In this document: positions 686-17,653 of the stretch, in pieces
Position numbering within the stretch: position 1 is the first letter of the stretch
How the letters are laid out: the number at the start of each line of letters is the position of its first letter
Assembly (NCBI RefSeq): GCF_008933165.1
Contig: NZ_WBVQ01000001.1
Location: 496,001-560,000 of the forward strand
Source: Phaeocystidibacter marisrubri
GTDB taxonomy: Bacteria > Bacteroidota > Bacteroidia > Flavobacteriales > Schleiferiaceae
Length of the DNA stretch: 64,000 nucleotides
Reading direction: 5' to 3'
Translations under genes and position numbers: made by a program
Notes under the pieces: model-generated
Database searches by the model: none
Told to the model about the DNA's origin: nothing
The model's input: only the letters and a program-made list of their open reading frames with translations

Positions 686-2302
686 ATGATCAAAACTGCA
701 TGGATTCAGCGGTCTGCTGTATGTCTATTTATGTTGATTTTTTCGTGCTCTACGGTTCCAGAAGTGCCAGAGGAAACGGTTTTTCGCTACAACGAATCCA
801 CCGGTATCTCCACTTTAGACCCTGCTTTTGCGCGGGAACAGTCTAGCATTTGGGCCTGTAACCAATTGTTTAACGGATTGGTACAGATGAATGATGATCT
901 TGAAGTTATACCCTGTATCGCGCAGAGTTGGACGATCTCAGATAGCGGCAGAACGTACACTTTCGCATTGCGCGATGATGTGTTTTTCCATTCTCATTTC
1001 CTTTTTGGAGAGGACAGCACACGTAGGGTGGTGGCGAGTGATTTTGAATACAGTTTTTATCGACTTACTGATCCGAAAACGGCTTCGCCCGGTGCATGGG
1101 TGCTTCAAGGCGTTTCATCCATATCTGCCACTCATCAAGACACCTTGGTGATTCACCTGAAAGAGCCATTTAGTCCTTTTTTAGGGATGCTGACGATGAA
1201 GTATTGCTCGGTAGTGCCTCGTGAAATAGTGGAAGACTTGGGCGATCAGTTTGGAAGGGAACCCATTGGTACAGGGCCATTTTCTTTTCAATGGTGGTCC
1301 ACCGATGAAAAGTTGGTCTTCCGCAAGAACCCGCTTTATTTTGAGTTTGAAGAGGGTGTTCGTTTACCATACTTAGAAGCGGTTGCTATTGATTTTATCA
1401 CCGATCGGCAGGCGGCCTTCTTGGAGTTTCTCAAAGGGGATATCGATTTGCTTTCAGGTTTGGATGCCAGTTACAAAGATGAATTGCTGACCAGTGATGG
1501 AGTACTTAAAGAGGAATACGAGGGACGCTTTCAACTTCAAAAGTTGCCTTATCTCAATACCGAGTACTTGGCAATCAATCAGAGCTGGGGAGAAGAACAA
1601 GTCATTTCTGATGTGGAATTTCGAAGAGCCCTCAACCTTAGTGTAGACCGCGTAAAAATGATGCGCTATCTGCGCAATGGAATTGGCCATCCTGCCGATG
1701 GCGGGATGATTCCATCGGGACTAAAGGGATATCATCCTGCAAGAACAGGAGGCTATTCCTTTCAACCCGACTCGGCAAAAGTACTTCTGGAGATGGTTCG
1801 CAGTCGCCACAATGGAGCAATTCCGTCGGTTACCTTAAACACCACGTCCAATTATTTAGATTTATGCGAGTATCTTCAATCGAGCTGGAACAAAATGGGA
1901 ATTCCTGTTGAGGTAGAAGTACTTCCCGCACCAACACTACGTGAGGGAAAAGCAGAAGGGACTTTGGCGTTTTTCCGGGCATCTTGGATTGCCGATTATC
2001 CAGATGCTGAGAACTATCTCTCCCTCTTTTATTCAGAGAATTTCACGCCAAACGGACCCAATTATACGTTCTTTTCTAATGCTGAATACGATCGTCTCTA
2101 TGCCTTGGTAAGAGCCTCTACAGAGGATGGCGAGCGAATAGAGTATTACCAAAAAATGGATAGCATTTTGGTGGCAGAATCTCCAGTGGTTCCACTGTTC
2201 TACGATGAAGTGGTGAGGTTTGTCCCTCGCAGTGTGGAGGGGTTGACACCCAATGCCTTGAATTTGCTAGACCTTAAGCGGGTGTTCAAGTCAGTTCGAT
2301 AA
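686..2302 (+). CDS. Peptide-type ABC transporter substrate-binding lipoprotein
   Basis: Family 5 extracellular solute-binding protein (DppA/OppA type), expected to bind peptides or similar solutes outside the inner membrane for an ABC importer. The 538-residue length fits the family. A start at 686 gives a short charged N-terminus, a hydrophobic stretch and a lipobox ending IFSC, so it is probably a lipoprotein; the frame is open a little further upstream, but the -7 box argues for 686. The body has the family pattern: YTFALRDDVFFH early, GTGPF near residue 195, and a C-terminal YYQKMDSILVAESPVVPLF segment. No permease or ATPase gene is adjacent, so it is an orphan here and the ligand cannot be inferred. 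Its end overlaps the convergent next gene by 12 bases. Confidence 0.85.
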   Translation: MIKTAWIQRSAVCLFMLIFSCSTVPEVPEETVFRYNESTGISTLDPAFAREQSSIWACNQLFNGLVQMNDDLEVIPCIAQSWTISDSGRTYTFALRDDVFFHSHFLFGEDSTRRVVASDFEYSFYRLTDPKTASPGAWVLQGVSSISATHQDTLVIHLKEPFSPFLGMLTMKYCSVVPREIVEDLGDQFGREPIGTGPFSFQWWSTDEKLVFRKNPLYFEFEEGVRLPYLEAVAIDFITDRQAAFLEFLKGDIDLLSGLDASYKDELLTSDGVLKEEYEGRFQLQKLPYLNTEYLAINQSWGEEQVISDVEFRRALNLSVDRVKMMRYLRNGIGHPADGGMIPSGLKGYHPARTGGYSFQPDSAKVLLEMVRSRHNGAIPSVTLNTTSNYLDLCEYLQSSWNKMGIPVEVEVLPAPTLREGKAEGTLAFFRASWIADYPDAENYLSLFYSENFTPNGPNYTFFSNAEYDRLYALVRASTEDGERIEYYQKMDSILVAESPVVPLFYDEVVRFVPRSVEGLTPNALNLLDLKRVFKSVR

Positions 2303-12311: not shown

Positions 12312-13106
12312 ATGAAAGAGCTAAATAGTATTCAGAATCCTACGGTTAAGAAGGTTGTTTCTTATATTGAAAAGTCTCGCGACCGCAAGAAGGATGCGGT
12401 TTTTGTTGTTGAAGGATTGAGAGAAAACGCTCGTGCCATTCAAACGGGATTGAGTCCGAAGTGGCTCTTTTATTCCAGTGAGTTTCTCAATGAAAACAAG
12501 ATGAGAGACCTAATTGAGTACAGGGAGCCTGACGCATTGGTTCACGAGTGCTCAGAAGCCGTATTTGAAAAGATTTCATTTCGCTCTGGAGTGCCCAATG
12601 TAGTGGGGGTTTATCCTCGAATTGACAAGAGTTTGGCCGAGTTGGAACCAAAGGAGAAAGCCTTCTATTTGATTGTTGAATCGGTAGAAAAGCCAGGAAA
12701 TTTAGGGGCGATTCTTCGCACGGCAAACGCGGCCAAAGTGGATGCTGTGATAGTGGCTAATGGGGTGGTGGATGTCTTTCATCCCCATGTGGTTAGAAAT
12801 AGTCTAGGAGGCTTCTTTGATGTTCCCGTAGTCAGTGCGAGCAATGATGAAATTAGTGACTTTCTTTCTTCCCATAACATTCCGTGTTTCGTTACCTATT
12901 TGGAAGGTGCGGTGCCACATTTTGAATGCGACTTTAGAGAAGCTTCTGCCATTGTGATGGGAGCTGAAGATACAGGTGTTTCCCAACATTGGATCGACGT
13001 GGCAGATGCTTTGGTAAAGATTCCGATGAGTGGAGTAGTGGATAGCTTGAACGTAAGTGTTGCTGCGGGAATCATGCTTTTTGAAGTGGTTCGCCAAAGA
13101 AGCTAA
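12312..13106 (+). CDS. TrmH/SpoU-family RNA 2'-O-methyltransferase
   Basis: 264-residue SPOUT methyltransferase with an N-terminal substrate-binding domain. The three SpoU motifs are present: VEKPGNLGAILRTA (motif 1, with the RNA-binding Asn and catalytic Arg), VIVMGAEDTGVS (motif 2) and IPMSGVVDSLNVSVAAGIMLFE (motif 3, the SAM-binding knot). It transfers a methyl group from SAM to a ribose 2'-OH of rRNA or tRNA; the target nucleotide cannot be read from sequence. It is distinct from rlmB in this window. Stands alone, with a candidate small RNA gene on the opposite strand just downstream. Confidence 0.88.
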   Translation: MKELNSIQNPTVKKVVSYIEKSRDRKKDAVFVVEGLRENARAIQTGLSPKWLFYSSEFLNENKMRDLIEYREPDALVHECSEAVFEKISFRSGVPNVVGVYPRIDKSLAELEPKEKAFYLIVESVEKPGNLGAILRTANAAKVDAVIVANGVVDVFHPHVVRNSLGGFFDVPVVSASNDEISDFLSSHNIPCFVTYLEGAVPHFECDFREASAIVMGAEDTGVSQHWIDVADALVKIPMSGVVDSLNVSVAAGIMLFEVVRQRS

Positions 13107-13134
13107 AAGCATGCCTTTTGAGGTAGGAATGGTC

Positions 13135-13220
13135 AGAAAATGAAAGACCCGGGTTTCCCCCGGGCCTCACACCAAACCAATAAACCTAAGCTACCCAGGT
13201 AGATCCCTGGGCATTAGATG
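13135..13220 (-). ncRNA. Candidate small structured RNA (two hairpins, terminator-like end)
   Basis: On the minus strand a TATATTTG box (13224-13231) is followed by hairpin 1, CCCAGG/CCTGGG (13194-13199 with 13206-13211) plus a G-U pair, an unpaired U-rich link, and hairpin 2, GGCCCGGG/CCCGGGTC (13146-13167), then TTTCATTTTC. In both hairpins one pair is G-U on the minus strand but A-C on the plus strand, so the structure is better as minus-strand RNA. No frame codes here. The only downstream gene in this direction faces the other way, so it would be a free-standing RNA of about 80 nt. I do not recognise a family. Confidence 0.5.
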
Positions 13221-13223
13221 AGT

Positions 13224-13231
13224 CAAATATA
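13224..13231 (-). promoter_or_regulatory. -7 box TATATTTG for the candidate small RNA
   Basis: A perfect TAnnTTTG on the minus strand just ahead of the two-hairpin region. No TTTG lies at the ideal upstream spacing; the nearest TTG (13264-13266) is too far. Confidence 0.4.
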
Positions 13232-13394
13232 GAACTTTATCTTTCATAACATTCCCCTAACATCAATTTTTTTGAAGCGAAATGGAATTTTCACGAAATC
13301 CTATGGGTAGTGCCTCAATTTGAACTTCTAGGCGAAATTTCAGGGTCAAATGAAGGGGGTTACATTCTTCAATAAACCTCCATTTGGAGGTAAG

Positions 13395-13682
13395 TTAATT
13401 GTTTTTTGAGGGCACATCAGTACTGGCAGTTTCCAGTGCGGATTTCCACTTGAGCTTTGTTTTATCGTCCACTTTAACCTCTTTTAGATGTTGGTGGTTG
13501 TGACTTAAAATGGAGTTGAGCTTTTTATTTTGTTTGCTGAATAAGGTGCAAAGTGCGCACCATTGCATGTGCATCCAAAGTCTCATTTGATCCAATCCAG
13601 ATAAGGCCTTCTGTTCGTTCATTTCAGCCTTCATGGTCGCTTCTTCGCAGGTGAAGAATAACTTGTGAAATAGGTTTTCCAT
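13395..13682 (-). CDS. Probable zinc-binding anti-sigma factor
   Basis: 95-residue soluble protein. H38-x3-C42-x2-C45 in HMQWCALC is the zinc-binding anti-sigma (ZAS) signature, preceded by a CEEAT motif (C12) that often opens such domains. There is no membrane segment, so it would act in the cytoplasm, binding the sigma factor directly. Its ATG overlaps the stop of the upstream ECF sigma gene (TAATG), the classic sigma/anti-sigma arrangement. The basic C-terminal half has no recognisable domain. The inducing signal is unknown; ZAS proteins often sense oxidation, but that is not shown here. Confidence 0.75.
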   Translation of the reverse strand: MENLFHKLFFTCEEATMKAEMNEQKALSGLDQMRLWMHMQWCALCTLFSKQNKKLNSILSHNHQHLKEVKVDDKTKLKWKSALETASTDVPSKNN

Positions 13683-14275
13683 TATTGGGCTTCGAATTTT
13701 TTCAATTCATTGAAATACGATTGGTCAAGGCAGTCTCTTAGTTGCAATTTGGCGCGGTGGATTAAAACCCAATAATTGGACGAGGTGATATCAAGTACCT
13801 TACAAATCTCCTCAGATTCTTCATCTTCTATATACTTCATTCGGAAAGCTGAAGCCCCTTTACCTTTCAGGTTGTCTATGCACCTTTCGAGTGCGCTTTT
13901 CAATTGAGAATTTTCCAATTCACCATCGGGTTGGTCATCCCAACTTTCATGGGGCATGTGTTCGCCGTTCCAACCGCCGCTTTCATCGAAATAGGAGCTG
14001 ATACTGACTTCTTTTTTAACGGAGACATCATCCTCACTTTGACGAGTACGCGTCTTTCGGTAGTGATCGATGATTTTGTTTCTGAGAATGCGCATCAACC
14101 AAGTTTTATCCGAAGCGCGCTCTTCAAAACTATCGAGAGATTTAAAGGCACTGAGCAAGGTGTCCTGAACGAGATCTTCTGCTATTTCCTTACTTCCCGT
14201 TCGTTGATAAGCAAAGCGAAAAAGCAAGTCTCCATAGGTGTCAACCCATTCACTGGCACGTTTTTGAGGATTCAA
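13682..14275 (-). CDS. ECF RNA polymerase sigma factor
   Basis: 197-residue group 4 sigma-70 factor. Region 2 is EDLVQDTLLSAFKSLDSFEERASDKTWLMRILRNKIIDHYRKTR (DNA melting and -10 recognition), then an acidic linker of about 50 residues, then region 4 with IEDEESEEICKVLDITSSNYWVLIHRAKLQLRDCL. The start is TTG; I see no in-frame ATG between the preceding stop and it. It is cotranscribed with the zinc-type anti-sigma gene that follows with a one-base overlap. The linker between regions 2 and 4 is longer than usual. Confidence 0.88.
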   Translation of the reverse strand: MNPQKRASEWVDTYGDLLFRFAYQRTGSKEIAEDLVQDTLLSAFKSLDSFEERASDKTWLMRILRNKIIDHYRKTRTRQSEDDVSVKKEVSISSYFDESGGWNGEHMPHESWDDQPDGELENSQLKSALERCIDNLKGKGASAFRMKYIEDEESEEICKVLDITSSNYWVLIHRAKLQLRDCLDQSYFNELKKFEAQ

Positions 14276-14382: not shown

Positions 14383-14832
14383 ATGAAAAAGAAGAACACC
14401 CGCAGAATTTTACTTGGATTGATTTTCGTCCTTGCCGCTATGCAATTTATTCAGCCGGCTAAGACCAATCCAACAGATCCAGCAGAACAAGATTTTGCGA
14501 ATGTTTACGACATTGATGCCGTGGATATGGAGATCATTCACAAAGCGTGCTACGATTGTCATTCGAATGAGACGGTATGGCCGTGGTACTCCAATGTAGC
14601 ACCGGCGTCATATGTGGTTGTCAATCATGTGAACGATGCTAGAAAGCATCTGAATTTTTCCAAATGGGGCAGCTATGCCGCAGATCGCAAAGACCACAAG
14701 CTAGAGGAGTGCGTGGAGGAAGTTGAAAGTGGCGAAATGCCAATGTCAAGTTACATTCTCGCACATAGTGAGGCTCGAATTTCAGCAGAGGAAAGAGCAC
14801 GCTTGGTCGAACTCTTCAAGTCGCTTCGCTAG
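14383..14832 (+). CDS. Haem-binding domain (cytochrome c-like) protein
   Basis: 149 residues with an N-terminal membrane anchor or signal (ILLGLIFVLAAMQFI) and a single haem c attachment site CYDCH (C56-x2-C59-H60), followed by SNETVWPWYSNVAP, a hallmark of the Bacteroidota Haem_bd family. A distal Met candidate lies in GEMPMSSY. It is probably periplasmic or anchored and could carry electrons, but its partner is unknown. The gene converges on uvrA with the two stop codons sharing four bases (CTAG). Confidence 0.85.
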   Translation: MKKKNTRRILLGLIFVLAAMQFIQPAKTNPTDPAEQDFANVYDIDAVDMEIIHKACYDCHSNETVWPWYSNVAPASYVVVNHVNDARKHLNFSKWGSYAADRKDHKLEECVEEVESGEMPMSSYILAHSEARISAEERARLVELFKSLR

Positions 14833-17639
14833 TCTATTTTCTCTCGAATCGCTTCTCCGGTGGCGTTTCCTTTCAGTTCTAAAATACCCTCGGGCGTGCC
14901 TTGATAAAGAAGCTCACCGCCTTTTTCGCCACCTTCCGGTCCTAGGTCAATGAGCCAGTCGGCACACTTGATTACATCCGGGTTGTGCTCGATAACTACG
15001 ATGCTGTGTCCCTTCTCGATCAAGGCATTAAAGGACTGAAGTAGTTTGTGGATGTCTTCAAAGTGAAGACCCGTCGTTGGCTCGTCAAAGATGAAGAGTT
15101 TCTTTCCTTCAGATTGCCCCATGATGAGGAAGCTGGCGAGCTTTACGCGCTGCGCTTCGCCACCTGAAAGTGTAGAAGATGATTGTCCGAGGTGTACATA
15201 ACCCAAGCCTACTTCCCTAAGCGGGTTAAGGCGAGTAACAATTTTAGGTTGCTCGTGTTCCTTAAAGAAATCAATGGCATCATCCACTGTCATTTCTAGT
15301 ACATCGTAGATGTTTTTCCCTTTGAACTGTACAGCCAGCACTTCGTCTTTGAATCGCTTGCCATCGCATTGTTCACACTTGAGGTGAACATCCGCCATAA
15401 ACTGCATTTCGATCGTAACCGAACCCTCACCCTTGCAAACGTCACATCTACCGCCATCGGTGTTGAACGAGAAGTGCTTGGGTTTTAGGTTATTCATCTC
15501 TGAAAGCTTCTGCGAAGCAAAGAGGGCGCGAATTTCGTCGTAGGCTTTGAGATAAGTTACAGGGTTGCTCCGGCTTGATTTACCAATTGGATTTTGATCC
15601 ACGAATTCCACTCCTGAGATGCGGTGGATGTCGCCTTCAACCGATTTGTGCTTTCCCGCTTTTTCGCCATAGCCTCCCAGTGCTTTCTGAAGCATAGGGT
15701 AGAGGATTCTGCGAACGAGTGTGGATTTACCTGAGCCGCTTACTCCTGTAACTACCGTGAACATGTGGAGAGGAAAGCTCACATCGATGTTCTTCAAGTT
15801 GTTTTCACGAGCTCCAGCTACTTCAATGGTGTACTTGAGTTCACGACGTTCTTTCGGGGTGGCAATTTCCTTGGTTCCGTTCAGGTATTGAGCGGTGAGG
15901 GTGTCTTTTTTCAGAAGGTTTTCAAGCGTTCCATCAAACAGAACTTCACCTCCATTAGAGCCCGCCCCCGGACCAATATCCACAATAAAATCTGCCGCCT
16001 TCATAAAGGCCTCGTCGTGTTCTACTACGATAACGGTGTTCCCAATGTCTCGAAGGTCTTGAACCACTTTCACTAAGCGGTCGGTGTCGCGCGGATGCAA
16101 GCCTATGCTAGGTTCGTCTAAGATATACATAGAACCAACAAGGCTAGAGCCCATGCTTGTAGCGAGGTTGATTCGTTGAGATTCTCCACCTGAAAGTGTA
16201 GCTGAAAGGCGATTTAGTGTTAGATATCCTAAACCCACCTCTCGGAGGTAATGCAAGCGATTGGTGATTTCGATGAGTAGACGTTTGGCTACTTTGTGAT
16301 CGAACTCAGACAATGAAAGATCGGCGAACCATTGGTGGAGCTTGTCCATGCTGAGATCCACCAACTCCATGATGTTCTTGTCGCCCACTTTTACATACGA
16401 TGCATCAATGCGCAGACGTCTTCCTTTACAATCTGGACATTTGGTCTTGCCGCGGTAACGCGAAAGCATAACGCGGTATTGAATCTTGTACGACTTTGAC
16501 TCAAGATGCTTGAAGAAGGCATTGATACCTCTGAAGTACTTGTTGCCTGTCCACAGCAGCTCTTGCTGTTCGGTCGACAAATCACCATAAGCGCGATGGA
16601 TGGGAAAATCGAATTTATCTGCATTTCGCACCAACTCATTTTTCCATTCTTGCATGGTATCTCCCTTCCAAGCCGCCACACAATCTTCATATACACTGAG
16701 AGCGCTATTCGGAATCACCAAATCTTCATCAATACCCATCACATTGCCAAAACCCTCGCATTTCGGACAAGCGCCGTAAGGGTTGTTAAAGCTGAAAAGG
16801 TGAAGTGAGGGTTCTTCAAATGTGATCCCGTCTGCCTCAAATTTGTTGCTGAACGTGACAATCTCATCTTGCTGAACCCAATGAATTCTACATTCTCCGT
16901 GTCCTTCAAAGAACGCCGTTTGAATCGAATCGGCGAGTCGGCTGTCGTTATCTTCATCGTCTTTCTTCGCCACCGCGCGATCAATGATCAATTCGGCATC
17001 TTGTGGCCAATCTTTTGGCTTTTGTTCGATGAGGTCATTGATATCTTCGGCTGTTCCATTCCACCAGATACGAGAAAAACCCTGTTGATGAAAGACGTTC
17101 AAGGCCTCTACTGTGGTTCTACCGTTGGGTTTAACAGGAGCAGTAACCATGAGGCGAGCACCTTCTTCTACGCTGTGAATGTGCTCCAGTACGTCGGATA
17201 CGGAATGACGCATGACTTGCTTTCCAGAAGTAGGAGAGTAGGTCTTTCCGATACGCGCAAATAGAACCTTGAGATAATCGTAAATCTCGGTTGTAGTACC
17301 GACCGTAGATCTAGGATTTCTTGAAATCACCTTTTGTTCGATGGCAATGGCAGGCGCCAACCCTTTTATGTCATCGACTTCCGGCTTGTTCAATCTGCCC
17401 AAAAACTGCCGAGCATAAGACGAAAGGCTTTCCACATATCTACGCTGACCCTCAGCATACAATGTGTCGAAGGCCAAAGAAGATTTACCACTTCCTGAAA
17501 CTCCCGTAATCACAACGAGTTTGTTTCTGGGAATGGTTAAATCAATGTTCTTCAAGTTGTGCACACGCGCACCAGAAATAACGATAGACTCGTCCATTTC
17601 AGCGGGTGTGGAAGTGATGTGTGGCGCCGTTTTTTCCAT
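14829..17639 (-). CDS. uvrA: Excinuclease ABC subunit UvrA
   Basis: DNA-damage recognition ATPase of nucleotide excision repair; dimerises and loads UvrB. 936 residues from the ATG at 17639, which lies 6 bases after a TACCTTTG box; an in-frame start 9 bases upstream would overlap that box. Two ABC modules are seen: Walker A GVSGSGKSSLAFDT near residue 45 and GVSGSGKSTLVRRI near residue 640, signatures LSGGESQRINLA and LSGGEAQRVKLA, and both zinc sites (CPKCEGFG with its pair, and CDVCKGEG...CEQCDG). Converges on the haem-binding gene with a four-base stop overlap. Confidence 0.97.
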   Translation of the reverse strand: MEKTAPHITSTPAEMDESIVISGARVHNLKNIDLTIPRNKLVVITGVSGSGKSSLAFDTLYAEGQRRYVESLSSYARQFLGRLNKPEVDDIKGLAPAIAIEQKVISRNPRSTVGTTTEIYDYLKVLFARIGKTYSPTSGKQVMRHSVSDVLEHIHSVEEGARLMVTAPVKPNGRTTVEALNVFHQQGFSRIWWNGTAEDINDLIEQKPKDWPQDAELIIDRAVAKKDDEDNDSRLADSIQTAFFEGHGECRIHWVQQDEIVTFSNKFEADGITFEEPSLHLFSFNNPYGACPKCEGFGNVMGIDEDLVIPNSALSVYEDCVAAWKGDTMQEWKNELVRNADKFDFPIHRAYGDLSTEQQELLWTGNKYFRGINAFFKHLESKSYKIQYRVMLSRYRGKTKCPDCKGRRLRIDASYVKVGDKNIMELVDLSMDKLHQWFADLSLSEFDHKVAKRLLIEITNRLHYLREVGLGYLTLNRLSATLSGGESQRINLATSMGSSLVGSMYILDEPSIGLHPRDTDRLVKVVQDLRDIGNTVIVVEHDEAFMKAADFIVDIGPGAGSNGGEVLFDGTLENLLKKDTLTAQYLNGTKEIATPKERRELKYTIEVAGARENNLKNIDVSFPLHMFTVVTGVSGSGKSTLVRRILYPMLQKALGGYGEKAGKHKSVEGDIHRISGVEFVDQNPIGKSSRSNPVTYLKAYDEIRALFASQKLSEMNNLKPKHFSFNTDGGRCDVCKGEGSVTIEMQFMADVHLKCEQCDGKRFKDEVLAVQFKGKNIYDVLEMTVDDAIDFFKEHEQPKIVTRLNPLREVGLGYVHLGQSSSTLSGGEAQRVKLASFLIMGQSEGKKLFIFDEPTTGLHFEDIHKLLQSFNALIEKGHSIVVIEHNPDVIKCADWLIDLGPEGGEKGGELLYQGTPEGILELKGNATGEAIREKID

Positions 17640-17645
17640 GGTTTG

Positions 17646-17653
17646 CAAAGGTA
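17646..17653 (-). promoter_or_regulatory. -7 box TACCTTTG of uvrA
   Basis: Perfect TAnnTTTG on the minus strand, ending 6 bases from the uvrA ATG. No clear TTTG is seen upstream at the expected distance. No SOS-type operator is recognised here. Confidence 0.45.

Follow-up and report, generated by a model that had tools for sequence, protein, structure and literature searches.

To our knowledge, little is known about small RNAs (sRNAs) in Bacteroidota from outside the gut. Exact-word searches of the open-access literature found no description of a Schleiferiaceae small RNA or Owenweeksia sRNA, and no paper on sRNA sponges in Bacteroidetes, Bacteroides or Bacteroidota. Among described systems, FopS and GibS of Bacteroides combine a consensus promoter, a conserved unpaired seed and a Rho-independent terminator; FopS has a single-stranded seed at its 5′ end and occurs in 12-15 copies in Bacteroidaceae (PMC11697453). 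Pairs of small RNAs that carry complementary stretches and act on each other are exemplified by CjNC140-CjNC110 (PMC10470494) and by the cis-antisense pair CJnc180-CJnc190 (PMC8687705), with experimental proof of both interactions.

We analyzed a window of 64,000 nucleotides from Phaeocystidibacter marisrubri, in which positions 13231-13135 on the minus strand look, judging from the sequence, like a previously unlisted small regulatory RNA gene common to aquatic Schleiferiaceae. The predicted RNA is like FopS and GibS in its consensus promoter, conserved unpaired seed and terminator, but its seed would lie between two hairpins, and each genome carries only one to three strong copies. It is like the CjNC140-CjNC110 and CJnc180-CJnc190 pairs in having small RNAs with complementary stretches as partners. 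However, we infer this pairing rather than demonstrate it, and, in contrast with a cis-antisense pair, the partners have loci of their own, apart from the sRNA gene, with at least two of them in five genomes of genus g11.

The element sits in a gap of 288 bases (13107-13394) between a SpoU-family methylase gene (12312-13106, plus strand; Pfam PF00588), with which it is convergent, and a minus-strand ORF of 95 aa (13395-13682; no Pfam match). This ORF overlaps the gene of an ECF-type sigma factor, the two together spanning 13395-14275 on the minus strand; in this genome they separate the sRNA gene from uvrA (14829-17648, minus strand; Pfam UvrA domains). The sequence-only reading that drew attention to the locus had described a gap of this length without a coding frame, and the ORF list indeed holds no frame of at least 50 aa inside it; a 102-aa minus-strand ORF (12804-13112) reaches only its edge. 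In two congeners, the genes adjacent to the sRNA differ from the pair of sigma factor gene and 95-aa ORF in the window.

Read along the minus strand, the element begins with a promoter-like box, TATATTTG (13231-13224), which follows the −7 consensus TAnnTTTG of Bacteroidota, given for Bacteroides and Flavobacterium (PMC7366714). As an 8-mer by itself TATATTTG is common (2 occurrences in the window vs. 2.04 expected). Hairpin 1 (13219-13184; 14 pairs with a 2-base bulge) is followed by an unpaired linker of 15 bases, TTATTGGTTTGGTGT (13183-13169), then by hairpin 2, an intrinsic-terminator stem-loop of 10 pairs (13168-13144), and finally by the T-rich tail TCATTTTCT (13143-13135). The predicted sRNA body, whose ends are also predictions, is about 82 nt long (13219-13138). 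The linker is the most telling part of the element: its conservation and unpaired probability mark it as the proposed seed, and the stretch complementary to the partner units described below, TATTGGTTTGGTGTGAGGCC (13182-13163), starts within it and enters hairpin 2 with its last bases.

The box, the two stable hairpins and the terminator-like end had all been noted by the sequence-only reading, and each was recovered; the linker between the hairpins and the complementary units elsewhere lay outside that reading. On the minus strand the element folds at −45.3 kcal/mol (z = −5.14), a value equalled by none of 200 shuffles, compared with −27.7 kcal/mol (z = −1.78; 7 of 200 shuffles) on the plus strand. 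By energy, z and shuffles alike the minus strand folds better, so the earlier choice of strand, which had been made from G-U pairs, was right; each hairpin has two such pairs on that strand (2-35 and 8-27; 52-76 and 55-73). The terminator scan placed a site at 13168-13144 on the minus strand with the tail TCATTTTCTG, and terminator-like sites numbered 3 in 501 bases vs. 0.6 expected, all three within the element.

No Rfam family matched the window at its gathering score and ARAGORN found no tmRNA there, in keeping with the initial failure to recognize 6S, 4.5S (SRP), tmRNA or RNase P RNA, which are likewise small non-coding RNA genes. Across 20 loci of the family and its partners, Rfam gave no match at the elements, and its two matches elsewhere were a tRNA and a DUF805b RNA. 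At a relaxed threshold, three matches in the gap were at chance level and were discarded. RteR (RF04181) is weakly similar in that a CCCGG terminator stem follows G/U-rich sequence, but its 16.6 bits (E = 5.9; gathering score 72) are at chance level. FopS has been deposited in Rfam, according to its report (PMC11697453), and Rfam release 15 may not include it.

In a blastn search with the gap against 60 relatives, two congeners matched at 91% and 86% over query positions 164-258 (window 13231-13137), and in other genera the match was a core centered on the linker. The covariance-model search that had been proposed as a check was run with a model, R1, built from 14 copies. It recovered the family in 53 of 88 Schleiferiaceae genomes at E ≤ 0.01 and in 46 of 88, from 6 of 19 genera, at E ≤ 3.1e-10, the remaining 7 of the 53 being weak. 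Strong matches were found in genera g1 (3/3 genomes), g6 (23/25), g11 (15/22), g12 (3/3), g16 (1/1) and g18 (1/1). Phaeocystidibacter luteus LMG 25704 also carries the element, on a contig that shares 1 kb of identical sequence with the congener locus L002.

Under stricter filters, R1 found nothing above 28.4 bits outside the family among 395 genomes of the order; the matches there came from three genomes of family f3 (23-28 bits), and one of these matches, L125, keeps 13 of 16 core bases. Matches in g3, g4, g15 and g17 were also weak (best L121, with 14 of 16 core bases; the others at most 13). In L121 and L125 (about 1270-1340), from another genus and another family, GGTTAATTGGTTTGAT or GGTTGATTAGTTTGGA precedes a terminator-like hairpin; from this resemblance, the two are possible distant relatives of the sRNA. 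In viral contigs the 16-mer matched 63 times, which is about chance by our estimate, and none of the 15 matches with TTTT downstream showed the sRNA layout by eye.

Most of what follows on genomic position and conservation refers to 68 copies, defined as those in which the fetched locus contains TTGGTTTGGT; a few model matches without it (e.g. L103, L111) were excluded. Genes in these loci are longest-ORF picks, with Pfam run on one member each. In 40 of the 68 copies (type A) element and methylase gene converge, and within the fetched flank a uvrA relative is the upstream same-strand neighbor of 36 of these 40. Another 22 are second copies (type B), all in genus g6, convergent with a DUF5777 beta-barrel gene that is followed by a YceI gene. 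When nine loci beside the methylase gene were read by eye, the element was visible at those of g1 and g11 and absent at seven (g5, g7, g10 and four other families). The type B loci L083-L088, L090-L093, L095, L097, L099-L102 and L104-L109 have diverged and mostly carry GGTTTATTGGTTTGGTTAA before the terminator. In genome G017, locus L110 (about 1480-1830, plus strand) holds two diverged copies 252 bases apart, with AGGTTTTGGTTTGGTTAGTG and strong terminator hairpins.

Conservation is uneven along the element. At a distance of 24-44 bases upstream of TTGGTTTGGT, 37 of 68 copies carry a TAnnTTTG box, a number that rises to 57 if TAnnTTTA is also accepted. Conservation of pairing, the other check proposed at the outset, held in an ordinary alignment of three congeneric genomes: all 72 pair cells of both hairpins were kept, under a structure taken from one of the three sequences, and hairpin 1 accounted for all of the three compensatory double changes (a number reached by 15 of 500 shuffles). 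For hairpin 2, in an alignment that is biased towards structure by having been fitted to the covariance model, 85.5% of 668 cells were paired across 69 distinct rows, vs. 66.4% in shuffles and 32-65% in slid structures, and double-change cells numbered 145 vs. 45.6 in shuffles. Over 69 unique copies, the mean z was −2.03 for the hairpin 1 parts and −4.97 for the hairpin 2 parts. Identity in the model alignment was 94-100% in columns 33-48 and 29-79% in columns 1-24; TTGGTTTGGT was present in 67 of 69 distinct model-aligned copies, some of whose loci had been fetched by this core. The linker ATTGGTTTGG had a mean unpaired probability of 0.78 (lowest 0.34, in L079).

These features bear on the simplest alternative, that no separate RNA exists and the element is just where transcripts of the upstream sigma operon end, as their terminator or 3′ untranslated region, or else a terminator working in both directions that also serves the methylase gene. 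Its place between convergent genes and its intrinsic terminator fit this idea, but a bare terminator has no need of the box found in 57 of 68 copies, of a covarying hairpin 1 or of a fixed linker. The upstream gene also varies, being a sigma operon here, other genes in the congeners and a uvrA relative in 36 of 40 methylase-linked copies. A 3′ untranslated end would lack a promoter of its own and conserved upstream structure; the element has a promoter-like box and a conserved hairpin 1, and we give this alternative hardly any credence. At the sequence level it possesses the promoter and intrinsic terminator of a trans-acting sRNA, together with a conserved single-stranded seed whose conservation comes partly from how the copies were selected. 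With box, covarying hairpins, near-fixed linker and no Rfam match, the comparison favors the free-standing minus-strand sRNA that the sequence-only reading had put forward.

Complementary RNA-like units in some of the relatives make a base-pairing action probable. In genus g11, the exact complement of the linker, GGCYTCACACCAAACC, occurs at two loci in other intergenic units, each closed by a terminator. Across 22 g11 genomes, YTCACACCAAACC with at most one mismatch gave 96 matches vs. 55 for the reversed pattern; its 34 exact matches comprised 15 in the sRNA, 2 in coding sequence and 17 others. A terminator stem lies 10-45 nt downstream of 13 of these 17 non-coding, non-sRNA sites, which are not independent of one another, vs. 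73 of 729 random non-coding positions. GGC, absent from the search pattern, precedes 14 of the 17 and lengthens the complement. Coding matches to the anti-linker (L254, L258, L274, L286, L292, L293) were dropped. Another pattern, CACCMAACC plus a T-run, proved too loose and was rejected, its counts being of the same order as for the reversed pattern (by eye, with overlapping T-runs recounted).

Two other readings of the linker can be weighed against these sites. It could be the site of an RNA-binding protein, with the RNA acting as a protein decoy of the CsrB kind and the complementary units unrelated. UUGGUUUGGU is repetitive and mostly unpaired, and in Bacteroides the RRM protein RbpB binds sRNAs where they are single-stranded (PMC11697453). 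Yet what recurs in the partners is the exact complement, even beyond the searched bases, and it stands ahead of a terminator at two orthologous loci, which makes a decoy quite unlikely. Alternatively, the sequence could be a double-stranded DNA motif, such as a regulator site or an uptake sequence, that chances to adjoin terminators, since both orientations occur near them. There are few exact copies per genome, however, 13 of the 17 non-coding g11 sites have the complement ahead of a terminator, and the hairpins next to the sRNA copies show the covariation of an RNA; we consider such a motif very improbable.

With one mismatch allowed, the candidate partners include two orthologous loci, P1 (9 genomes) and P2 (10 genomes), both of which are present in five g11 genomes. 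Neighboring genes confirm the orthology. At P1, all 9 members have a related convergent gene and 8 of 9 a related upstream same-strand gene (product in L222, Schlafen AlbA_2, PF04326). At P2, a related divergent gene is present in all 10 members, and on the other side blastp finds an FeS_assembly_P gene (PF01883, run on L220) to be related in 8 of 10. Identity between neighbor proteins falls to 30-39% (P1) and 26-30% (P2) for the most distant members compared. Across the P1 and P2 units found, the anti-linker differs by no more than one or two bases, a sameness biased by the pattern (at most one mismatch) through which the members were found.

The layout of the g11 partners mirrors that of the sRNA: an anti-linker, then a terminator, often with a 5′ hairpin. 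A terminator stem lies within 70 nt in all 19 P1 and P2 units, and a CAnnTTTG box, one base off the consensus, 13-21 bases ahead in 16 of 19 (P1 6/9, P2 10/10). No box could be recognized in P1 units L213, L214 and L253, in P3 units or in L207, L309 and L321, and the terminator is missing in two of three P3 units. Folded alone, many units leave the anti-linker unpaired between 5′ hairpin and terminator, while in three P1 folds (L222, L259, L290) the terminator arm is taken up by pairing with the 5′ part. The terminators of partner units could not be aligned with one another. Ahead of the box the two loci carry different repeats. GTACC repeats occur in 6 of 9 P1 members and, in L259, L290, L222, L285 and L289, take the form GTACCC...GGTAC...GTACCA directly ahead of the CAnnTTTG box; from their sequence they look like a regulator's operator. 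P2 units (L215, L220, L271, L282, L287, L291, L295-L297, L299) have tandem TCAC repeats, CTCACAA and variants, in the same place, and the CTCACAA repeats are as well conserved as the anti-linker.

Pairing of partner units with the sRNA of their own genome would span 11-18 contiguous bases including G-U (24 units compared, 2 without an sRNA), with 13 bases in L221 and an unbroken stretch of 11 in L289; duplex energies are biased because the sites were chosen by complementarity. In the two genomes whose sRNA has GAAGCC, the partners have GGCTTC in 3 of 3 cases, and where the sRNA has GAGGCC, the partners have C or T, both of which can pair. This agreement is consistent with pairing but weak, because the search pattern favored C or T.

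The window's own genome has four exact ACCAAACCAATA sites, that of the sRNA among them. One intergenic minus-strand unit, L140, has the box TAGGTTTG, then CTCACACCAAACCAATA and TCTCACACCCAACCAAAACC, then a strong terminator; its CTCACACCAAACCAATA holds 17 nt perfectly complementary to the window sRNA, with a near-complement in the same unit. We considered whether L140 might be a decayed sense-strand copy of the sRNA but prefer to read it as a partner, because its box and terminator lie on the complementary strand. The unit has no blastn match in two congeners. Downstream of it (L140:1190-1227, minus strand) Rfam matches a DUF805b cis-regulatory RNA (37.0 bits; gathering score 35.6), which directly precedes an outer-membrane beta-barrel gene. 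Two sites in the congener G001 are linked to a terminator and would pair over 15-17 bases. In the genus as a whole there was no excess of complementary sites, neither for the 12-base anti-linker (86 vs. 108 for the reversed pattern) nor for CACCAAACC ahead of ATG (66 vs. 64), and a large regulon is thus not supported.

A few anti-linker sites lie close to start codons. In the window's own genome three genes have one no more than 35 nt before their start codon: a TonB-dependent receptor gene (L141; PF07715), a gene for a 279-aa protein (L436) and, with one mismatch, a gene for a 281-aa protein (L151). The first agrees with the susC-type target of the FopS report (PMC11697453). In g6, where there are 68 exact ACCAAACCAATA sites and those in 30 fetched loci were read, a start codon follows 17-29 positions after the first base of the site in 5 of 7 non-coding, non-sRNA sites; the five are two orthologous pairs and one single site.

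We conclude that the window RNA is probably a trans-acting sRNA of about 82 nt with a linker seed, titrated by sponge RNAs and blocking a few mRNAs. The linker would act as the seed and pair with CACACCAAACC-type sequences. The anti-linker units would be small, separately controlled sponge RNAs that titrate the sRNA by binding it, and free sRNA would block translation of the few mRNAs with an anti-linker just upstream of the start codon, the target in this genome perhaps being the TonB-dependent receptor. A protein of the RbpB type as chaperone is a lead by analogy with Bacteroides (PMC11697453). Transcription and ends of the sRNA, RNA-RNA pairing in cells, the direction of control and the targets are what we infer from these patterns. 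The direction could be the opposite, with CACACCAAACC RNAs as the regulators and the window RNA as their sponge: the repeats ahead of them (GTACC at P1, tandem CTCACAA at P2) make the partners look regulated, and the window RNA has a consensus box. But the window RNA occurs in six genera, whereas P1 and P2 were found in one, and candidate start-codon sites, though few, exist for the window linker, the side on which the search was made. Such a reversal of roles is unlikely.

These results give an aquatic bacterial family a defined sRNA gene whose ends and seed are predicted and whose partner RNAs can be tested, and whether and how the sRNAs of Bacteroidota are titrated becomes directly testable. 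More tentatively, and with somewhat less than even confidence, we propose for Schleiferiaceae a circuit in which a hub sRNA with a near-frozen linker faces several mirror RNAs at separate loci, each with a different operator-like sequence, so that different signals would free the same set of targets. If true, this hub and its mirror RNAs would be a sponge network in Bacteroidota.
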